Shown here: one piece after another, positions 2,707 through 59,176 of the stretch
Layout of the letters: each line of letters starts with the position of its first letter
Numbering within the stretch: the first letter of the stretch is position 1
Source of the DNA: Solimonas fluminis
GTDB lineage: Bacteria > Pseudomonadota > Gammaproteobacteria > Nevskiales > Nevskiaceae
Assembly (NCBI RefSeq): GCF_002930645.1
Contig: NZ_PSNW01000009.1
Location: forward strand, 62,001-126,000
DNA: 64,000 nt
Reading direction: 5' to 3'
Made by a program: the position numbers and the translations under genes
The notes under the pieces: model-generated
Seen by the model: only the letters and a program-made list of their open reading frames with translations
Database searches by the model: none
Told to the model about the DNA's origin: nothing

Positions 2707-3446
2707 CACGGCGCCGGTTCCTTCGCCGCCGCGGCCGGGGCGGCCGGGGCGGCGGCCGGGCCATCGGCCGTGTTCAGGCGCAGCGTGCGCAGCGGCAGGC
2801 GCAGGTCGGCCTCGGTGATCACCACCGGCGCCGGATCGGGCACGATGATGCTGGCCTGCAGCGCCGACTTCACCGGCACGTCCATCTTGCTGCGGATGGG
2901 AATGGTGGCGGCGATGTCGGCCTTCAGCGGCACGTCCAGCGCCTGTTTGAGCTTGGCCTCCACCGGCGCGGTGAACTTGAGGTGCACCATCTGGTCGACC
3001 GGGATGTTGAGGTTGACCGGAACCTTGGCCTTGACCGGAATCTTGCCGCGCAGCGGCAGGTCGTGCGTGTCGCCGAGCAGGTCGGCCTTGACCACGGTGT
3101 TCACGTCCAGCAGCTGGTCGATCACGATGTAGTCCTTGACCGGGACGTTCATCTTGATCGGAATCTCGCTGTCGAAGCTGGCATTGACGCGCAGCGTCTC
3201 CTCCACCGGAATCCTGACGCGCTGGTCCACCGGCACGGTGGTGGTGATGGCGGTGTCGATCTCGATCGACAGGTCGTTGAGCACGTCGGCACTGATGTTC
3301 AGCGGTTCGGGCAGCAGCACGGTGGCCGGCTGGTCCTTCAGTACCAGTCGGGCATCGACGTTGCGGAACACCCACCAGCCGGCGACGGCACCGCCGGCAA
3401 CGGCGCCCAGCAGGATCGCGAGGAAGAAGATCGTGGTTTTGCTCAC
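2706..3446 (-). CDS. Membrane-anchored beta-rich protein, first of a tandem paralogous pair
   Basis: This is a 246-residue protein with an N-terminal anchor (TIFFLAILLGAVAGGAVAGW). A long region follows in which IPV/VPV motifs recur every 10-20 residues (VPVDQR, IPVEET, IPIKMNVPV, IPVKAKVPVNLNIPV, VPLKAD, VPVKSA). It ends in an Ala/Pro-rich tail. The pattern suggests a repetitive beta structure exposed to the periplasm. It lies 10 bases after the DUF1302 gene and is directly followed by its paralogue. No named domain is recognised. The repeats could form an extended bridge or a hydrophobic groove, but this is inferred only from the spacing of the motifs. Confidence 0.75.
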   Translation of the reverse strand: MSKTTIFFLAILLGAVAGGAVAGWWVFRNVDARLVLKDQPATVLLPEPLNISADVLNDLSIEIDTAITTTVPVDQRVRIPVEETLRVNASFDSEIPIKMNVPVKDYIVIDQLLDVNTVVKADLLGDTHDLPLRGKIPVKAKVPVNLNIPVDQMVHLKFTAPVEAKLKQALDVPLKADIAATIPIRSKMDVPVKSALQASIIVPDPAPVVITEADLRLPLRTLRLNTADGPAAAPAAPAAAAKEPAP

Positions 3447-15968: not shown

Positions 15969-15972
<4 letters not shown>

Positions 15973-17387
15973 GATCCGGAGCCCTTCTTCGCCGCCCGCA
16001 GCTGCTCCAGCTTCTCGGCAATCTTGATCTCGAAGCCACGTCGCACCGGCTGGTAGAACTCGGTGCCGCGCAAGCGGTCCGGCAGGTACTGCTGGCCTGC
16101 CGCATGGCCGCCCGCTTCGTCATGGTCGTAGCGATAGCCCTCGCCGTAGCCAAGATCCTTCATCATCCTGGTGGGCGCGTTGCGGATGTGCAGGGGCACC
16201 TCCAGCGATCCTGTCTGCTCCACTACCGCGCGCGCCGCGTTGTAGGCGGTGTAGACGGCGTTGCTCTTGGGGGCCACCGCCAGGTAGACCACGGCCTGCG
16301 CGATCGCGAGTTCCCCTTCCGGGCTGCCCAGCCGCTCATAGGTATCCCAGGCTTCCAGGCAAAGGCCCTGGGCCCGCAGGTCGGCGAGCCCTACGTCCTC
16401 CACCGCCATGCGCGTCACCCGCCGCATCAGGTAGCCGGGATCGGCGCCGCCATCGAGCATGCGCGCCAGCCAGTACAGGGCACCGTCCGGATCGCTGCCG
16501 CGTACGGACTTGTGCAGGGCCGAGATCTGGTCGTAGAAATTCTCGCCCTGCTTGTCGAAGCGGCGGAAGCCCCTGCCGATCAGCCGCTCCAGCAGCGCGT
16601 CATCGCGGGAAGCCTCGGCGCGCGACAGTTCCACCGCCGTCTCCAGCAGGATCAGCGAGCGCCGTGCGTCGCCGTCGGCGGCTTCGGCGATGCGCCGCAG
16701 CCAGCTTTCCGGGATCGCCTCCTGGCCTGTGCCCAGGCCGCGCTCTGCATCCGCCAGGGCACGGCGCAGCAGATCCAGGATCGCCGGTTCGTCCAGCGCG
16801 CGCAGCACGAAGACGCGCAGCCGCGACAGCAGCGCCGCATTGAGTTCGAAGGAAGGGTTCTCCGTGGTGGCGCCGACCAGCACGACCGTGCCGTCCTCCA
16901 CGAAGGGCAGCAGCGCGTCCTGCTGCCCCTTGTTGAAACGATGGATCTCGTCGATGAACAGCAGGGTGCGCCGCGGCGTCAGTCCGCGCAGCTCCGCCTG
17001 CGCCGCGGCCATCGCCTCGCGGATGTCCTTGACGCCCGCCAGCACCGCCGACAGCGTCAGGAACTGCGCGTCGCTGTGCTGGGCGATCAACCGCGCCAGC
17101 GTGGTCTTGCCGACGCCCGGCGGCCCCCAGAACACCATGGAGGGAATACTGCCCGCCTCCAGCAGCACGCGCAGCGGCGCCCCGGGCCCCAGCAGGTGAT
17201 CCTGGCCGAAGACCTCGTCCAGCGTCCGTGGACGCATGCGCTCCGCCAGCGGGTGAGTCGGATGAGGCCGACGCCCAGTGGACGTCGGCCCCGACGAACG
17301 CCCAGCCATGGATGGCTGGGCAGGGGGGGGCTCAGACGCGCCGCTGTCGCGCCATGGACGGCCACCCTGCTCTTCTGGCCCGCTCAT
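15969..17387 (-). CDS. rarA: Replication-associated recombination protein RarA (MgsA), AAA+ ATPase
   Basis: A 472-residue clamp-loader-like AAA+ ATPase acting at stalled replication forks. Walker A is GPPGVGKTTLARL (residues about 89-101) and Walker B is LFIDEIHRFNKGQQD; the C-terminal oligomerisation region (MLDGGADPGYLMRRVTRMA) is intact. The conserved core starts at PLAERMRPRTLDEVFGQ near residue 47. The first 45 residues are a Pro/Ser/Gly-rich extension encoded by DNA containing a dispersed palindromic repeat (17300-17321). The ATG at 17387 overlaps the lolA stop (ATGA). If that start is used, the repeat is translated. Confidence 0.93.
17300..17361. repeat. Dispersed palindromic repeat inside the 5' end of rarA
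   Basis: A perfect palindrome with arms GCCCAGCCAT / ATGGCTGGGC around a GG centre lies at 17300-17321. A weaker copy of the core (GCCATGGACGGC) is at 17350-17361. The same CCATGGATGG-type centre recurs at 18158-18210, 23409-23471 and 49890-49901 with different but still pairing arms. Confidence 0.7.
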
Positions 17388-18007
17388 CCGCCCCCGTCCA
17401 CCACTTCCGCGCCCTTGGGCGGGGTGAAGCTGAACTGTGCCGCGTCGATCTTCGGATTGGTCTTGATCGCCGTGAAGCGGATATCGGTCTTGCCGCCCAG
17501 TTGGTCATGGAAGCGCATACGCTGTGGCACGCCATTGCTGAGCCACAGCTCGATCGACTTGAAATCGCCATCCTGGCTCTTGGGCAACAGGCGCACGATG
17601 CTGGCGCCGTTCTCGCTGCCGCCGTCCTGCAGCGTGTACGCATCACCCAACAGCGCCTTCTGCGACAGCAGAGCCGCCGGCGTGCCGCTGAGCGCCTGCT
17701 CCGCCGACCGCACCGTCACCTGCGCCAGGTCCGGGTCATAGAGGTAGATCTTCTTGCCGTCGCAGACCATCAGCTGCGCGTACGGCTTCTCATAGGTCCA
17801 GCGGAACTTGCCAGGCCGCGACAGAGCGATCTTGCCCGAACTCGTGCCCGTGACCTTGCCGGCTTCATCCGACTGCACCTGGCTGAAGTCCGCCGTCAGC
17901 GTCTGCACGCCATCCACGAACTTGCGCAGCGTGGTCTGGGGGTCTTCCGCGTGGGCAGGCAGGATAGAGGCCAGGCCCAGGAGGGCGGCGAAGAGGCGAA
18001 GCTTCAT
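17384..18007 (-). CDS. lolA: Outer-membrane lipoprotein carrier LolA
   Basis: A 207-residue periplasmic chaperone carrying lipoproteins from LolCDE to LolB. The signal peptide is KLRLFAALLGLASILPAHAE. The mature chain shows the LolA pattern: TADFSQVQSDEAG, GKIALSRPGKFRWTYEKPY, GKKIYLYDPDLAQVTVR and the C-terminal IRFTAIKTNP. The start at 18007 is chosen because it gives a compact signal peptide; an in-frame ATG ten codons earlier is less likely. It is separated from ftsK by 553 bases of repeat-rich DNA, longer than usual for this pair. Confidence 0.95.
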   Translation of the reverse strand: MKLRLFAALLGLASILPAHAEDPQTTLRKFVDGVQTLTADFSQVQSDEAGKVTGTSSGKIALSRPGKFRWTYEKPYAQLMVCDGKKIYLYDPDLAQVTVRSAEQALSGTPAALLSQKALLGDAYTLQDGGSENGASIVRLLPKSQDGDFKSIELWLSNGVPQRMRFHDQLGGKTDIRFTAIKTNPKIDAAQFSFTPPKGAEVVDGGG

Positions 18008-18560
18008 GGTGGTGAATCCGTTCAAAAATGACATCTCCAGTATGCGAGGAGGGGCTGAATCGGTTCTGAACCTCGGGTCTTGGTGAGCGTAGCGAATGCT
18101 TTTGATGTCGGGTCCCATTGTGCGAGTGCCTGCGCGGGGGGCGGGCGCAGGGTCGAGCCGGGCATGGATGCCCGGCCGAGGACACGCAGGCCATGGATGG
18201 CCTGTGTGTCCGACCCGTCGCGCCTGAGCATCGCGCAGGTTGCCCCGCTTCAGCGGGGCCGCTCGCACCTGGGTGTGCTTTCTTTGGTTACTCGCCCCCA
18301 GGCGAAACCAACCCTCAGAGTCTCACTGCACCTGAGCGGCCTCAGGGCCGCCACCCCTCTCCCAGCCCCTCTCCCACAAGGGGAGAAGGAGTCGATTGCG
18401 GACGCGATCCCTCTGGCGAATATTTTATCGCGAGGTGGGGTAAACACCTAACGGAATTCCGTTTTTCTGCGAACTGTTGCGCGCCCCTCGATACACCGCT
18501 ACGCGGCACTCGGGGTGAACGGTCTGGCTAGATCGCAGGGAAAAGCGACGGCTACTCTGG
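18008..18560. repeat. Repeat-rich spacer between ftsK and lolA, no gene
   Basis: No coding frame here has family resemblance or consistent codon use. The stretch is a mosaic: palindrome CCGGGCATGGATGCCCGG (18158-18175); a longer hairpin at 18181-18210 with 14-base arms and one mismatch around the same GG centre; a CTTTCTTTGGTTACT segment near 18281 (its complement resembles GAAACCAAAG near 24670 and 24773); a CCTCTCCC...GGGGAGAAGG inverted repeat near 18355-18391; and TCGATACACCGCTACGCGGC followed by ACTCGGGGTGAACGG near 18488-18523, resembling intergenic repeats widespread in proteobacteria. Confidence 0.7.
18158..18210. repeat. Two adjacent CCATGGATGG-type palindromes
   Basis: 18158-18175 has arms CCGGGCAT / ATGCCCGG. 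18181-18210 has arms GACACGCAGGCCAT / ATGGCCTGTGTGTC with a single wobble-compatible mismatch. Both share a GG centre flanked by AT. Arm sequences differ, but pairing is kept. Confidence 0.75.
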
Positions 18561-23408: not shown

Positions 23409-23521
23409 CGCCATCCATGGCGGGACTTCTGCTCGCCGATCCAAGCCCGGCCCGGTCATCCATGGCCGGGCGTTCGGCAACACGGGCGATGCCATTTGGG
23501 CATCGCCCGAGACGTGTTGCC
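23409..23521. repeat. Palindromic repeat cluster between aat and bpt
   Basis: Three hairpins lie in tandem. CGCCAT-CC-ATGGCG is at 23409-23422. A 22-base palindrome at 23450-23471 has arms GCCCGGTCAT / ATGGCCGGGC (one wobble-type mismatch). A nested hairpin at 23476-23521 has inner arms GGGCGATGCC / GGCATCGCCC and outer arms GGCAACAC / GTGTTGCC. The first two belong to the CCATGGATGG family in reverse orientation. Confidence 0.75.
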
Positions 23522-23544
23522 TCGCCCACGCTGCTCGCGGTGTC

Positions 23545-39155: not shown

Positions 39156-39256
39156 ACCCAGGCGGCAAGGAGGAGCTTCCGTGGCCCCTCCATGGCGAGG
39201 CGGCAGCTACCCCATCCAACCCCCACCCAGCCCTCCATGGTCGGGCCTTCGTCGGA

Positions 39257-39279
39257 GCGGATGTCCACCGGACATCCGC
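39257..39279. terminator. Hairpin after maf and the HAD phosphatase gene
   Basis: A perfect stem GCGGATGTCC / GGACATCCGC with loop ACC ends one base before the phosphatase stop codon on the minus side. The same stem core (GGATGTCC) recurs at 49761-49785. No long T run follows, so termination is only a possible role. Degenerate CCTCCATGG motifs lie upstream in the same spacer (39190-39245). Confidence 0.5.
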
Positions 39280-39936
39280 TTATTCCCGACTCAGCCAGCC
39301 CGGCAGCCCGGCGACGTCTTCCAGCAGCACGGCCGGCCCCGACGAGCGCAGGCGGACTTCGTCATGCACGCCGCAAAGCACGGCGGCGCCGGGCATGCCG
39401 ATGGCGGCGGCCATGGCCATGTCGTATTCGGTATCGCCGATCATCAGCGCCTCGCCGGCGGCGATGTCCTCCGCCTCCAGCAGCTCCCGCAGCATCAGCG
39501 GATCGGGCTTGGAGGCCGTTTCGTCGGCCGTTCGCGATCCCACCAGCAGGCGCCGCAGCTCGGTGTGGTGCCGCAGGGAGCGGTCCAGGCCCCGGCGCGA
39601 CTTGCCGGTGGCCACGGCCAGGCGATAGCCCTGTTCGTGCAGGGCCTCCAGGGCGTCCAGCGCTCCCGGAAACAGCGGCGCCTCGCGGGTCTCGGTGACC
39701 CACTGGGCGCGATAGCGCTCCAGCAGGGCCCGCAGGGCATTCAGCTCCAGCTCCGGGAACAACCGGACCAGCACGTCGTTCATGCCCAGCCCGATCAGCT
39801 CGCGGATGGTCTGGTCGTCGCGCGGCGGCAGGCCCAGGTCCCGGATCGCCACCTGCATGGTATCGACGATGGCGGCGGCCGAATCGGCCAGCGTGCCATC
39901 CCAATCGAAGATCAGAAGCTGCGGAGCCTTGGCCAC
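39280..39936 (-). CDS. HAD-superfamily phosphatase (Gph-like)
   Basis: A 218-residue HAD hydrolase. Motif I is LLIFDWDGTLADS, motif II is VATGKS, and motif III/IV is KPDPLMLRELLEAEDI with ALMIGDTEYDMAMAAAIGM. The cap domain is helical (C1 type), as in phosphoglycolate phosphatases. The substrate is uncertain. In pseudomonads a HAD gene occupies the same place between rluC and sohB/maf; here sohB is missing. It follows rluC after nine bases. Confidence 0.9.
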   Translation of the reverse strand: MAKAPQLLIFDWDGTLADSAAAIVDTMQVAIRDLGLPPRDDQTIRELIGLGMNDVLVRLFPELELNALRALLERYRAQWVTETREAPLFPGALDALEALHEQGYRLAVATGKSRRGLDRSLRHHTELRRLLVGSRTADETASKPDPLMLRELLEAEDIAAGEALMIGDTEYDMAMAAAIGMPGAAVLCGVHDEVRLRSSGPAVLLEDVAGLPGWLSRE

Positions 39937-49408: not shown

Positions 49409-49750
49409 ATGGCGAAGACGCTGTTCGAGAAGATCATCGACCGGGAGATCCCCGCCACGATCGTCCACGAGGATGAATCGTGCGTGGCGATCCAGGACAT
49501 CAACCCGGGTGCGCCCATGCACCTGCTGCTGATCCCGCGCAAGCCCATTCCCCGCCTCTGCGACGCCGGCCCGGAAGACCAGGCCCTGCTGGGCCACCTG
49601 ATGCTGGCAGCCGGCAAGATCGCCGCCGCCCACGGCTACGGCGAGGCCTTCCGCCTGGTGGTGAACAACGGCGCCGAGGCCGGCCAGTCCGTGTTCCACC
49701 TGCACCTGCACCTGATCGGCGGCCGCCCGCTGAAGTGGCCGCCGGGGTGA
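49409..49750 (+). CDS. HIT family nucleotide-binding protein (HinT-like)
   Basis: A 113-residue protein with the histidine triad VFHLHLHLIGGRPL at the C-terminus, and LFEKIIDREIPATIVHED at the N-terminus, typical of HinT phosphoramidases. CCAGGAG precedes the ATG at 49409. It is divergent from msbA. A repeat hairpin follows 10 bases after the stop. Confidence 0.94.
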   Translation: MAKTLFEKIIDREIPATIVHEDESCVAIQDINPGAPMHLLLIPRKPIPRLCDAGPEDQALLGHLMLAAGKIAAAHGYGEAFRLVVNNGAEAGQSVFHLHLHLIGGRPLKWPPG

Positions 49751-49760
49751 GACGGAAGCC

Positions 49761-49901
49761 GGTGGATGTCCAACGGACATCCACCCCGTCGAACGCCCGG
49801 CCGTGGAATGTTTGGCCCGGCTGAGGCATGACTCAATGTCATGCCGAAGTAAGCCAGACATGGGCCGGGGCTGGATGAGCTGAAGTCGCGCCATGGATGG
49901 C
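49761..49901. repeat. Repeat mosaic between the HIT and crotonase genes
   Basis: A perfect hairpin GGTGGATGTCC-AAC-GGACATCCACC at 49761-49785 shares its core with 39257-39279. A GCCATGGATGGC palindrome is at 49890-49901. GCATGACTCAATGTCATGC near 49826-49844 forms another hairpin. These lie between 49751 and 49977, where no gene is seen. Confidence 0.7.
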
Positions 49902-49977
49902 AACCCCAACCCCGCAGCCTCCGTCACCAGTGCCGTAAAATGGCGGCCATCCCTTCTCTTTCCCCTTGGAGTCCCAC

Positions 49978-57894: not shown

Positions 57895-58456
57895 GGTCAC
57901 CTCTTGGGATTTAAGAAAAAAGTGGAAATTGCGCGGCGAAAGACGACCGCAGCCGAAATGAAGAGGCGGCAATCATAACGACCGCCCCCCCCTCCGACAA
58001 CCGAAACCGGGGTCGCCCGGCCGCCCGGGGCGGCGCCTAAACCTGCGCCACTGAAAAATTTTTGACACTGATTCATCACACGCCCTACACTCCGGAAAAG
58101 CTTGCAGGGGAAATGTCAAGGGGAGTTGGACAGCTGCAGGAAGGCGGCGAATCCGGCCAGGGGAGCGGCACCACAAGAAGCCGCCGGCACGGATCATGGC
58201 TCAGAAGGCCGGGAAAGGCCGTTGGCTCCTGTGGAAAGTTCAGATCGGCCGGTTGCCGCGCGCGACCGTTGGTGCGATCGACATTTTCACTCCAGACTGG
58301 ATTCGCTTGGTGCCGCCCGTTTCGGGAGGCAAAGGTAAAAGAATGTCGCCTCGCAGCGGCTTGGCCGCTGCAGGATGATGATCCGGCGCGTCGCGTCGAC
58401 CGCCCATGAGTCCCTGGCCTACCGTGGCCGCTACACGTTTGGAGCTTGTTGAACTT
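57895..58456. other. 562-base spacer between fadB and the H1-like gene
   Basis: No convincing gene is seen. It contains a strong promoter-like sequence for the right-hand gene at 58062-58091, G/C-rich inverted repeats near 58010-58035, and a leader of about 360 bases. A 60-codon open frame (58196-58378) has codon use unlike its neighbours and is not called. The leader might hold a structured RNA; no known RNA family was recognised. Confidence 0.55.
58062..58091 (+). promoter_or_regulatory. Strong sigma-70-type promoter, reading toward the H1-like gene
   Basis: A perfect TTGACA (58062-58067), preceded by AAAAATTT, is followed 18 bases later by TACACT. It is the best promoter match in the window. 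Its transcript would have a leader of about 360 bases before the ATG at 58457. Confidence 0.6.
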
Positions 58457-59176
58457 ATGAAGAAGCCGAGCAAATCCAGCGGCAAGGCCGCGAAGAAGAC
58501 CGTTTCCAAGGTCAAGGCACAGGCCAAGAAGGCCCAGAGCACGGCCAAGAAGACCGTCGCCAAGGTCAAGGCGCAGGCCAAGAAGGCCCAGAGCACGGCC
58601 AAGAAGACCGTCGCCAAGGCCAAGAAAGCCGTGAAGAAGCCGGTGGCCAAGGTCAAGGCGGTCGTCAAGAAGGACGTGGCCAAGGCCAAGAAGGCCCAGG
58701 CCGCCGTCAAGAAGCAGGTCGCCAAGGCCAAGACCGCCGTCAAGAAGGACGTCGCCAAGGCCAAGGCCGTGGTGAAGAAGGACGTCGCCAAGGTCAAGGC
58801 GGTCGTCAAGAAGGACGTGGCCAAGGCCAAGGCCGCGGTCGAGAAGGTCGTCGCCAAGGCACCGCTGCCCAAGCCGGTGGCCAAGCCCGCCGCCAAGCCC
58901 GCCGCCGCGAAGCCGGCTCCTGCCCCGGCCGCCCCCAAGGCCAGCCCCGTGGCCAAGGCCAAGGCCAAGATCAGCGAGGCCACCGACAAGGTGGTGAGCG
59001 CGGTCCAGGCCATCACCCCGTCGCCGCTGTCGCGCGCCTTCCTCGCCACCTCGCAGGGCAAGAAGGAAGCGGCTACCGCGCCGGCAGCGGCTCCTGCCGC
59101 GACCCCCGCCGCGGCGGAAGCCGCCCCGGCCGCCGAGCCGCAGCCGCAGCCCAGCCAGGGCAGCCTGCTGCCCTGA
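58457..59176 (+). CDS. Histone H1-like/AlgP-type lysine-rich protein
   Basis: A 239-residue highly basic protein. The first 145 residues are Lys/Ala/Val repeats (KVKAQAKKAQSTAKKTVA twice, then KAVVKKDVAKVKAVVKKDVA-type units) like eukaryotic histone H1 tails and pseudomonad AlgP. A Pro/Ala/Lys section, a short less repetitive segment (ISEATDKVVSAVQAITPSPL) and an Ala/Pro-rich tail follow. It probably binds DNA or another polyanion. The ATG at 58457 is chosen; GGAG is 13 bases away, so an in-frame TTG start upstream is possible. Confidence 0.85.
   Translation: MKKPSKSSGKAAKKTVSKVKAQAKKAQSTAKKTVAKVKAQAKKAQSTAKKTVAKAKKAVKKPVAKVKAVVKKDVAKAKKAQAAVKKQVAKAKTAVKKDVAKAKAVVKKDVAKVKAVVKKDVAKAKAAVEKVVAKAPLPKPVAKPAAKPAAAKPAPAPAAPKASPVAKAKAKISEATDKVVSAVQAITPSPLSRAFLATSQGKKEAATAPAAAPAATPAAAEAAPAAEPQPQPSQGSLLP
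58511..58618 (+). repeat. 54-base tandem repeat in the H1-like gene
   Basis: Two near-identical units of 54 bases (18 codons) begin at 58511 and 58565, encoding KVKAQAKKAQSTAKKTVA-type repeats. Related degenerate units continue downstream. Confidence 0.8.

Follow-up and report, generated by a model that had tools for sequence, protein, structure and literature searches.

The window analyzed in this study (the whole stretch of 64,000 nucleotides) contains on its minus strand the open reading frame of rarA (mgsA; 15969-17387), which encodes a 472-aa AAA+ replication-associated recombination factor. Membership of the RarA family is indicated by matches to Pfam MgsA_C (1.5e-65) and AAA and, by phmmer, to the E. 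coli RarA structure 3pvs (1.8e-138); Hydrocarboniphaga and a Nevskiales MAG are the nearest named relatives among the matches listed. On the same strand, lolA extends over 17384-18007 (TIGR00547, 231 bits), and its stop codon overlaps the rarA ATG as ATGA at 17384-17387, which is seen in the sequence and had been recognized in an earlier sequence-only reading of this DNA. The rarA start codon within this overlap (17385-17387, minus strand) follows a G-rich Shine-Dalgarno-like stretch.

The conserved RarA block opens with PLAERMRP (17229-17252, minus strand). Within a 12-row alignment, P46 is the first invariant residue, preceded by 45 codons, and L47 and A48 are likewise invariant, in agreement with the distance of about 46 codons between ATG and core that had been proposed; alignment A2 contains 11 of the 80 loci from the list of RarA relatives. 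The pattern PLA.RMRP is common to the window RarA and E. coli RarA (3pvs). Two in-frame start codons lie upstream of RMRP, namely the ATGA at 49 codons and, at 23 codons, an ATG in hairpin 2 of the repeat described below (17307-17309, minus strand), which has no Shine-Dalgarno match. Read from the ATGA, RarA residues 2-20 are SGPEEQGGRPWR...; the first six or so codons (MSGPEE) and LAERMRP lie outside the repeat.

The R1 repeat family

A three-hairpin repeat element of the family here called R1 lies in frame in rarA at 17251-17367 on the minus strand (113-117 nt, with ends GGGTGG...CTCACCC). Its bounds are 17251-17363 according to the model, and the outer limit of 17367 was set by eye from the short terminal pairing GGGTG/CACCC. 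Hairpin 1 (GCCGTCCATGGC; 17350-17363, minus strand) is defined by the R1 alignment, hairpin 2 (GCCCAGCCATCCATGGCTGGGC; 17300-17321, minus strand), which encodes AQPSMAGR, by inverted repeat I4 and the fold, and hairpin 3 (17257-17295, minus strand, inner stem at 17266-17290) by an inverted repeat, the fold and the R1 alignment. The outer stem of hairpin 3 is formed by GTCGG (17291-17295) and CCGAC (17257-17261), for which many other copies have GGCGG/CCGCC. The tail CATCCGACTCACCC was assigned to the element because its CCGAC is able to pair with GTCGG, as CCGCC does with GGCGG in many copies. The 3′ limit falls 10 nt before the RMRP codons, within a Pro codon.

The R1 covariance model, for which 12 other copies of the same genome were used and the rarA copy was excluded, matches the latter over its full length (17251-17363, minus strand; model positions 1-113; 91.2 bits, E 7e-15), which bears out the earlier claim that the stretch between start and core is encoded by a repeat. 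At least 69 copies were detected in the genome at E ≤ 1e-3, a lower bound that comes from scoring 150 of 9850 first-look candidates, and the repeat core GCCATGGATGGC has 72 genomic occurrences versus 0 for the backwards pattern, some elements holding two. None of 200 shuffles folds as well as 17253-17370 (z -3.7). At the family level, 90.8% of the stem cells are paired, and among the 12 copies 15 of 30 pairs are changed on both sides, compared with a shuffled mean of 6.8. The rarA element is a short, probably mobile hairpin repeat.

Three further copies are present in the window, at 23409-23527 (plus strand, 94.3 bits), 39183-39296 (plus strand, 76.7 bits) and 49745-49902 (minus strand, 74.5 bits), and positions 58430-58859 hold a tandem array of lysine/alanine-type codons with direct repeat families D1 and D2. 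Elsewhere in the genome, six copies (G000:C23:324294, C23:79637, C29:199860, C8:32350, C12:5951 and C3:130520) end directly at a common further sequence, approximately TTCGACAGGCTCAGGGCGAACGG, and the copy at G000:C7:94587-94681 adjoins an apparent tRNA 3′ end, part of which (aactgagctacgggcg) recurs on the far side. At loci L273, L278 and L306, an ATG follows the end of the R1 copy after about 17-21 nt, and the spacers resemble one another (GCTCGC.CCG.TATGA-like).

Distribution of the repeat at rarA

The genus of the window genome (genus g1, window genome G000) has three other members, G001, G002 and G003. All three share the lolA-rarA ATGA overlap and have a shorter RarA N-terminus (MSAPRPTAAARSAQPAQPLAERMRP or near variants), with 17 codons before PLAER versus 45 in the window, a net difference of 28 codons; none of the three gave an R1 match at rarA in the covariance search. 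These shared characters suggest that the ATGA start is probably older than the repeat, which would sit in variable coding sequence. Removal of the 114-117 nt element leaves MSGPEEQ(P)LAERMRP in frame, as a matter of arithmetic and not as an observed ancestor, and at most positions the first rarA codons of the window lineage are unlike those of the congeners. An origin of the rarA 5′ end by transfer from genus g10 was also considered and is not supported by core identities: over the initial 240 nt of the core, G000 shares 93% identity with G001, 91% with G002 and 80-86% with the five g10 carriers compared, values that parallel those of the remaining gene.

Usable rarA 5′ ends were obtained from 55 of 58 family genomes (all except G010, G025 and G054) and from 5 of 27 genomes outside the family, which represent other families of the order. 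An R1 match (E ≤ 1e-4) abuts rarA in 11 of the 55 family genomes, belonging to five genera (g1, 1/4; g10, 6/11; g5, 1/2; g6, 2/17; g9, 1/2), while the other 44 lack it, as do all five genomes from outside the family. The sequence-only reading had named relatives with the same extension but no repeat as the evidence that would speak against it, and the N-termini of these 55 family genomes include no such case. In ten of the 11 carriers the distance from the model end to the RMRP codons is exactly 10 nt (18 nt in G018), a value that may be uncertain by two or three bases owing to the common Pro codon (CCN). The length from hairpin 2 to the end is 62 nt in seven carriers, 65 nt in G012 and 68 nt in G039, and the identical frame is left in the nine rarA-side copies with a locatable hairpin 2 (all except G016 and G018); this shared frame across lineages is mild evidence only, since 28 of 52 copies of the window genome fall into the same residue class.

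At least 847 R1 matches were recorded in the 58 genomes after filtering, and chance would place a copy at this particular gap in approximately 0.2 of 55 genomes, compared with 11 observed. This estimate assumes 4000 genes per genome, the six carriers from g10 are not independent of one another, and one of the 11 carriers has to be set aside because the site was chosen for the repeat in the window. Sequences downstream of 68 copies were examined for a target-site motif like the rarA junction and yielded none, the mean best match to the 18-base junction being 9.01 downstream, 9.15 upstream and 9.45 at random positions. At locus L144 (G048), an array of four R1 matches occupies 2765-3132 between lolA and rarA, and three of its units carry an ATG in the spacer.

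In g10, the likely rarA start lies in the element itself. Five of six genomes have there an ATG or GTG before RCTGATC, with a preceding GAGG in four; in G044 the start is likely a GTG in hairpin 1. G039 and G016 may start inside hairpin 3, where Shine-Dalgarno pairing is weak (-3.2 and -1.9).

A second in-frame copy in ribD

The 69 copies of the window genome were scanned for open frames of coding composition. Thirteen frames were flagged, 11 of them on the N-terminal side (rarA included), one on the C-terminal side and a single one on both sides, the last at C34:234397-234510; several of the N-terminal-side copies have, as judged by eye, an ATG just after the element. The copy at G000:C34:234397-234510 lies inside RibD (TIGR00326, 392 bits; ribD at 1080-2702 of locus L319, minus strand), in the same strand and phase as in rarA and with SMA at the hairpin-2 loop, and it is common to G000 (46.9 bits) and the congener G001 (75.4 bits). 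The distance from the DDPxL to the RxVLD motif is 150 nt in these two genomes, 36 nt in G003 and G040, and 39 nt in G048 and G008, which corresponds to a net gain of 114 nt versus the former pair and 111 nt versus the latter; no ribD insert of such size was found in G002 and G032. The ribD loops of G041 and G044 are of intermediate length, and the longer one (G044) yields 16.7 bits with R1 (E 0.13). Since this is not a significant match, the loop may also vary by other means or may hold worn-out copies. By eye, the hairpin-2 stem of the ribD copy shows a paired change between G000 and G001, from GCGAC/GTCGC to GTGAC/ATCAC.

Translation start of RarA and alternative explanations

Duplex energies, computed with letters that we take to be those of the 16S tail, were -9.2 kcal/mol before the ATGA and +1.2 kcal/mol before the hairpin-2 ATG. 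Five hundred random sites gave a mean of -4.2 and a 5% quantile of -9.3, and the ATGA of the three congeners gave -8.4, -9.0 and -8.0 kcal/mol. Shine-Dalgarno pairing at the ATGA and its absence at the hairpin-2 ATG favor the former as the start. In the AlphaFold model, obtained with a thin 12-row alignment, RarA residues 1-39 have pLDDT values below 50 and residues 51-60 a block mean of 91; only this N-terminal contrast was used because confidence is also poor in parts of the C-terminal region (residues 393-453, likewise below 50). Residues 1-39 are predicted to be disordered.

We consider it likely that the repeat was inserted into the variable N-terminus of rarA with the ATGA start and the reading frame kept, and that the resulting tail is translated. 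A non-autonomous mobile repeat of approximately 115 nt with three hairpins would have entered variable rarA codons just before PLAERMRP, presumably by transposition. The frame would have been kept because the element is open in the rarA phase and the net length change is divisible by three; this phase is open in 32 of the 52 genomic copies with a located hairpin 2 (the rarA copy included), 52 of the 69 R1 copies having a locatable one. Ribosomes would still initiate at the old lolA-overlapping ATGA and read through the element, and RarA would gain a Pro/Ser/Gly-rich tail that exceeds that of its congeners by about 28 residues, is probably disordered and presumably has little or no effect on the AAA+ core. 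Of the possibilities raised by the sequence-only reading, a translated extension with coupling kept is favored by the ATGA in all three congeners and by the Shine-Dalgarno pairing. Its description of an intergenic repeat becoming protein stands as far as the in-frame repeat is concerned but probably not for the intergenic origin, the ATGA start being probably older; such a capture fits g10 better than the window lineage because the likely g10 start codon is inside the element.

The extension might instead be untranslated, with RarA starting at the hairpin-2 ATG (17309) behind a near-native leader and the element serving as a 5′ leader that uncouples rarA from lolA. This ATG is in frame and lies 23 codons before RMRP, compared with 21 in the congeners, the start in G039 and G016 may itself lie inside the element, and passages of one survey state that many 5′-end REPs may be extragenic, with the start misplaced (PMC3733652). 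We regard this explanation as unlikely, however: the hairpin-2 ATG lacks a Shine-Dalgarno match (+1.2 kcal/mol) and is placed by the fold at the loop of a strong hairpin, and both the window (-9.2) and the congeners (-8.4, -9.0 and -8.0) retain a well-paired ATGA overlap. A start near MRPRTLDEV, also raised by the sequence-only reading, would accord with the conserved AAA+ fold, which begins around there in the AlphaFold model, but it is highly improbable because E. coli RarA also has PLA.RMRP, and P46, L47 and A48 are invariant in the 12 rows.

It is also conceivable, though quite improbable, that the element is kept at rarA as a cis-acting RNA that regulates rarA, with the peptide arising incidentally. 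Rfam classes the related TwoAYGGAY family as cis-regulatory, one copy of that family lies 5′ of lolA (18148-18219), CsrA binding has been proposed for it in a passage of one report (PMC4333381), and the element recurs at rarA across genomes. On the other side, the loops of hairpins 1 and 2 in the rarA sense strand read UCCAU and not GGA, the rarA copy has no RF01731 match at E ≤ 1, and 44 of the 55 family genomes have no rarA element. Insertion into a variable, translated N-terminus is the explanation that we prefer, and the history of the element is considered below.

Evolutionary history of the rarA element

On a RarA tree of 49 rows (without G003, G004, G005, G007, G035 and G037), presence of the element requires six changes, five of them forced by well-supported branches and each either a gain or a loss; one of 500 label shuffles needed as few. 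The only clade among the carriers consists of the six g10 rows, and both G016 and G000 fall within groups of element-free relatives, the placement of G000 in g1 being poorly supported (80/9). Searched against seven genomes, the rarA copy of G041 matched those of G044 and G040 with 98.7 and 88.7 bits and other places with at most 48.2 bits; these hits did not include the rarA copies of G048 and G043, which in pairwise scores are closer to that of G041 than any of the window genome's own copies is. With the G041 copy nearest to those of G044 and G040, the g10 element looks inherited.

An old element in the ancestor of several genera, followed by many losses (including those in the congeners) and by gene conversion to local copies, would be consistent with the identical rarA junction in five genera, with the single g10 clade and the similarity of the G041 copy to those of G044 and G040, and with an element tree, drawn without support values, in which the window copy is next to the g10 rarA copies. 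This scenario is nevertheless doubtful. G016 stands among element-free relatives with rarA cores 88-89% identical and a shared NAHA-like N-terminus, the window copy scores 58 with a copy of its own genome versus 57 with that of G040, the hairpin-3 types are unlike between genera, and the RarA tree calls for at least five presence changes, though these may be gains or losses. Several gains, at least three (in g10, in G016, and in the window lineage or its near ancestors), appear most likely from these comparisons.

The five distinct g10 elements (G050, near-identical to G041, was left out) are 112 nt long and have no indels. Counted from approximately the start codon, the variable columns are 9/30, 8/30 and 16/29 at codon positions 1, 2 and 3, a third-position excess (16/29 versus 17/60 at positions 1 and 2, p 0.019) that is small and belongs to one of four stretches looked at. 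From hairpin 2 on, the corresponding counts are 6/23, 6/24 and 12/23 (p 0.035), and the signal is absent from the first 42 nt of the element (7, 7 and 9 of 14). Intergenic copies in four length classes have no steady third-position excess, with position 2 low in one class. This pattern suggests translation of the element in g10, and not directly in the window.

A tentative possibility is that the rarA 5′ end is a recurrent landing site, precise to the nucleotide, at which separate gains occurred in the same orientation and at the same base, with domestication in g10. If so, the g10 repeat would supply RarA with a ribosome-binding site, a start codon and a selected N-terminal peptide, and a hairpin repeat could act as a portable module of translation start and N-terminus for a replication-repair protein.

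Comparison with known repeats

In-frame palindromic repeats are already known, and the R1 family and its recurrent rarA junction seem to be new; a few searches of an open-licence library found no literature on a repeat in rarA or on R1. Passages of three papers describe Rickettsia palindromic elements (RPEs) as palindromic repeats of approximately 100-150 bp with an open frame that form in-frame fusions in genes of conserved proteins, and N-terminally RPE-decorated proteins are said there to be expressed (PMC2229807, PMC10969869, PMC3733652). R1 resembles RPEs, by description, in lying in frame within genes of conserved proteins (rarA and ribD), but it comes from another taxon and has three separate hairpins with TCCNTGG loops. 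The GTAG/CGTC REPs are, according to parts of one study, also found inside genes, often those of replication and repair, and at about the same site in two Xanthomonas recB genes (PMC3733652). Like them, R1 is a high-copy hairpin repeat that also occurs inside genes, but it measures 113-117 nt with three hairpins, whereas REPs measure 20-40 bp, and neither a GTAG nor a CGTC tag is present at the R1 consensus ends (CGCC...CTCACCC), CGTC being found inside hairpin 1 of some copies. MITE-type elements such as ERIC, YPAL and Correia are characterized in a portion of PMC2229807 as small non-autonomous repeats that form in-frame gene fusions. By comparison, the terminal repeat of R1 (GGGTGG/CTCACCC) spans only about 5 bp, as seen by eye in some copies, and no target-site duplication is obvious at the filled/empty ribD pair, the one pair inspected.

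The present case adds to these a filled/empty-site example, outside Rickettsia, of a palindromic repeat that probably became protein sequence. The recurrent exact junction makes it testable whether the repair-gene bias mentioned in part of PMC3733652 reflects target choice, selection or chance. The case also matters for annotation, since repeat-derived N-termini resemble start-site errors.

TwoAYGGAY (Rfam RF01731, clan CL00106), which is listed as a candidate RNA motif in a section of PMC2864571, shares with R1 the palindromes around AYGGAY (ATGGAT, ATGGAC) and differs in abundance, with six RF01731 matches in the genome versus at least 69 for R1. Assignment of the rarA copy to this family was rejected because RF01731 has no match at E ≤ 1 within 17150-17450. 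The only window site that reaches the gathering score is 18148-18219 (plus strand, 55.3 bits), 5′ of lolA, which R1 matches weakly (30.2 bits). In the three congeners (L122, L139 and L140), weak R1 matches (23-34 bits) also occur at a long distance 5′ of rarA, by which the TwoAYGGAY copy at 18148-18219 may be conserved in the genus.
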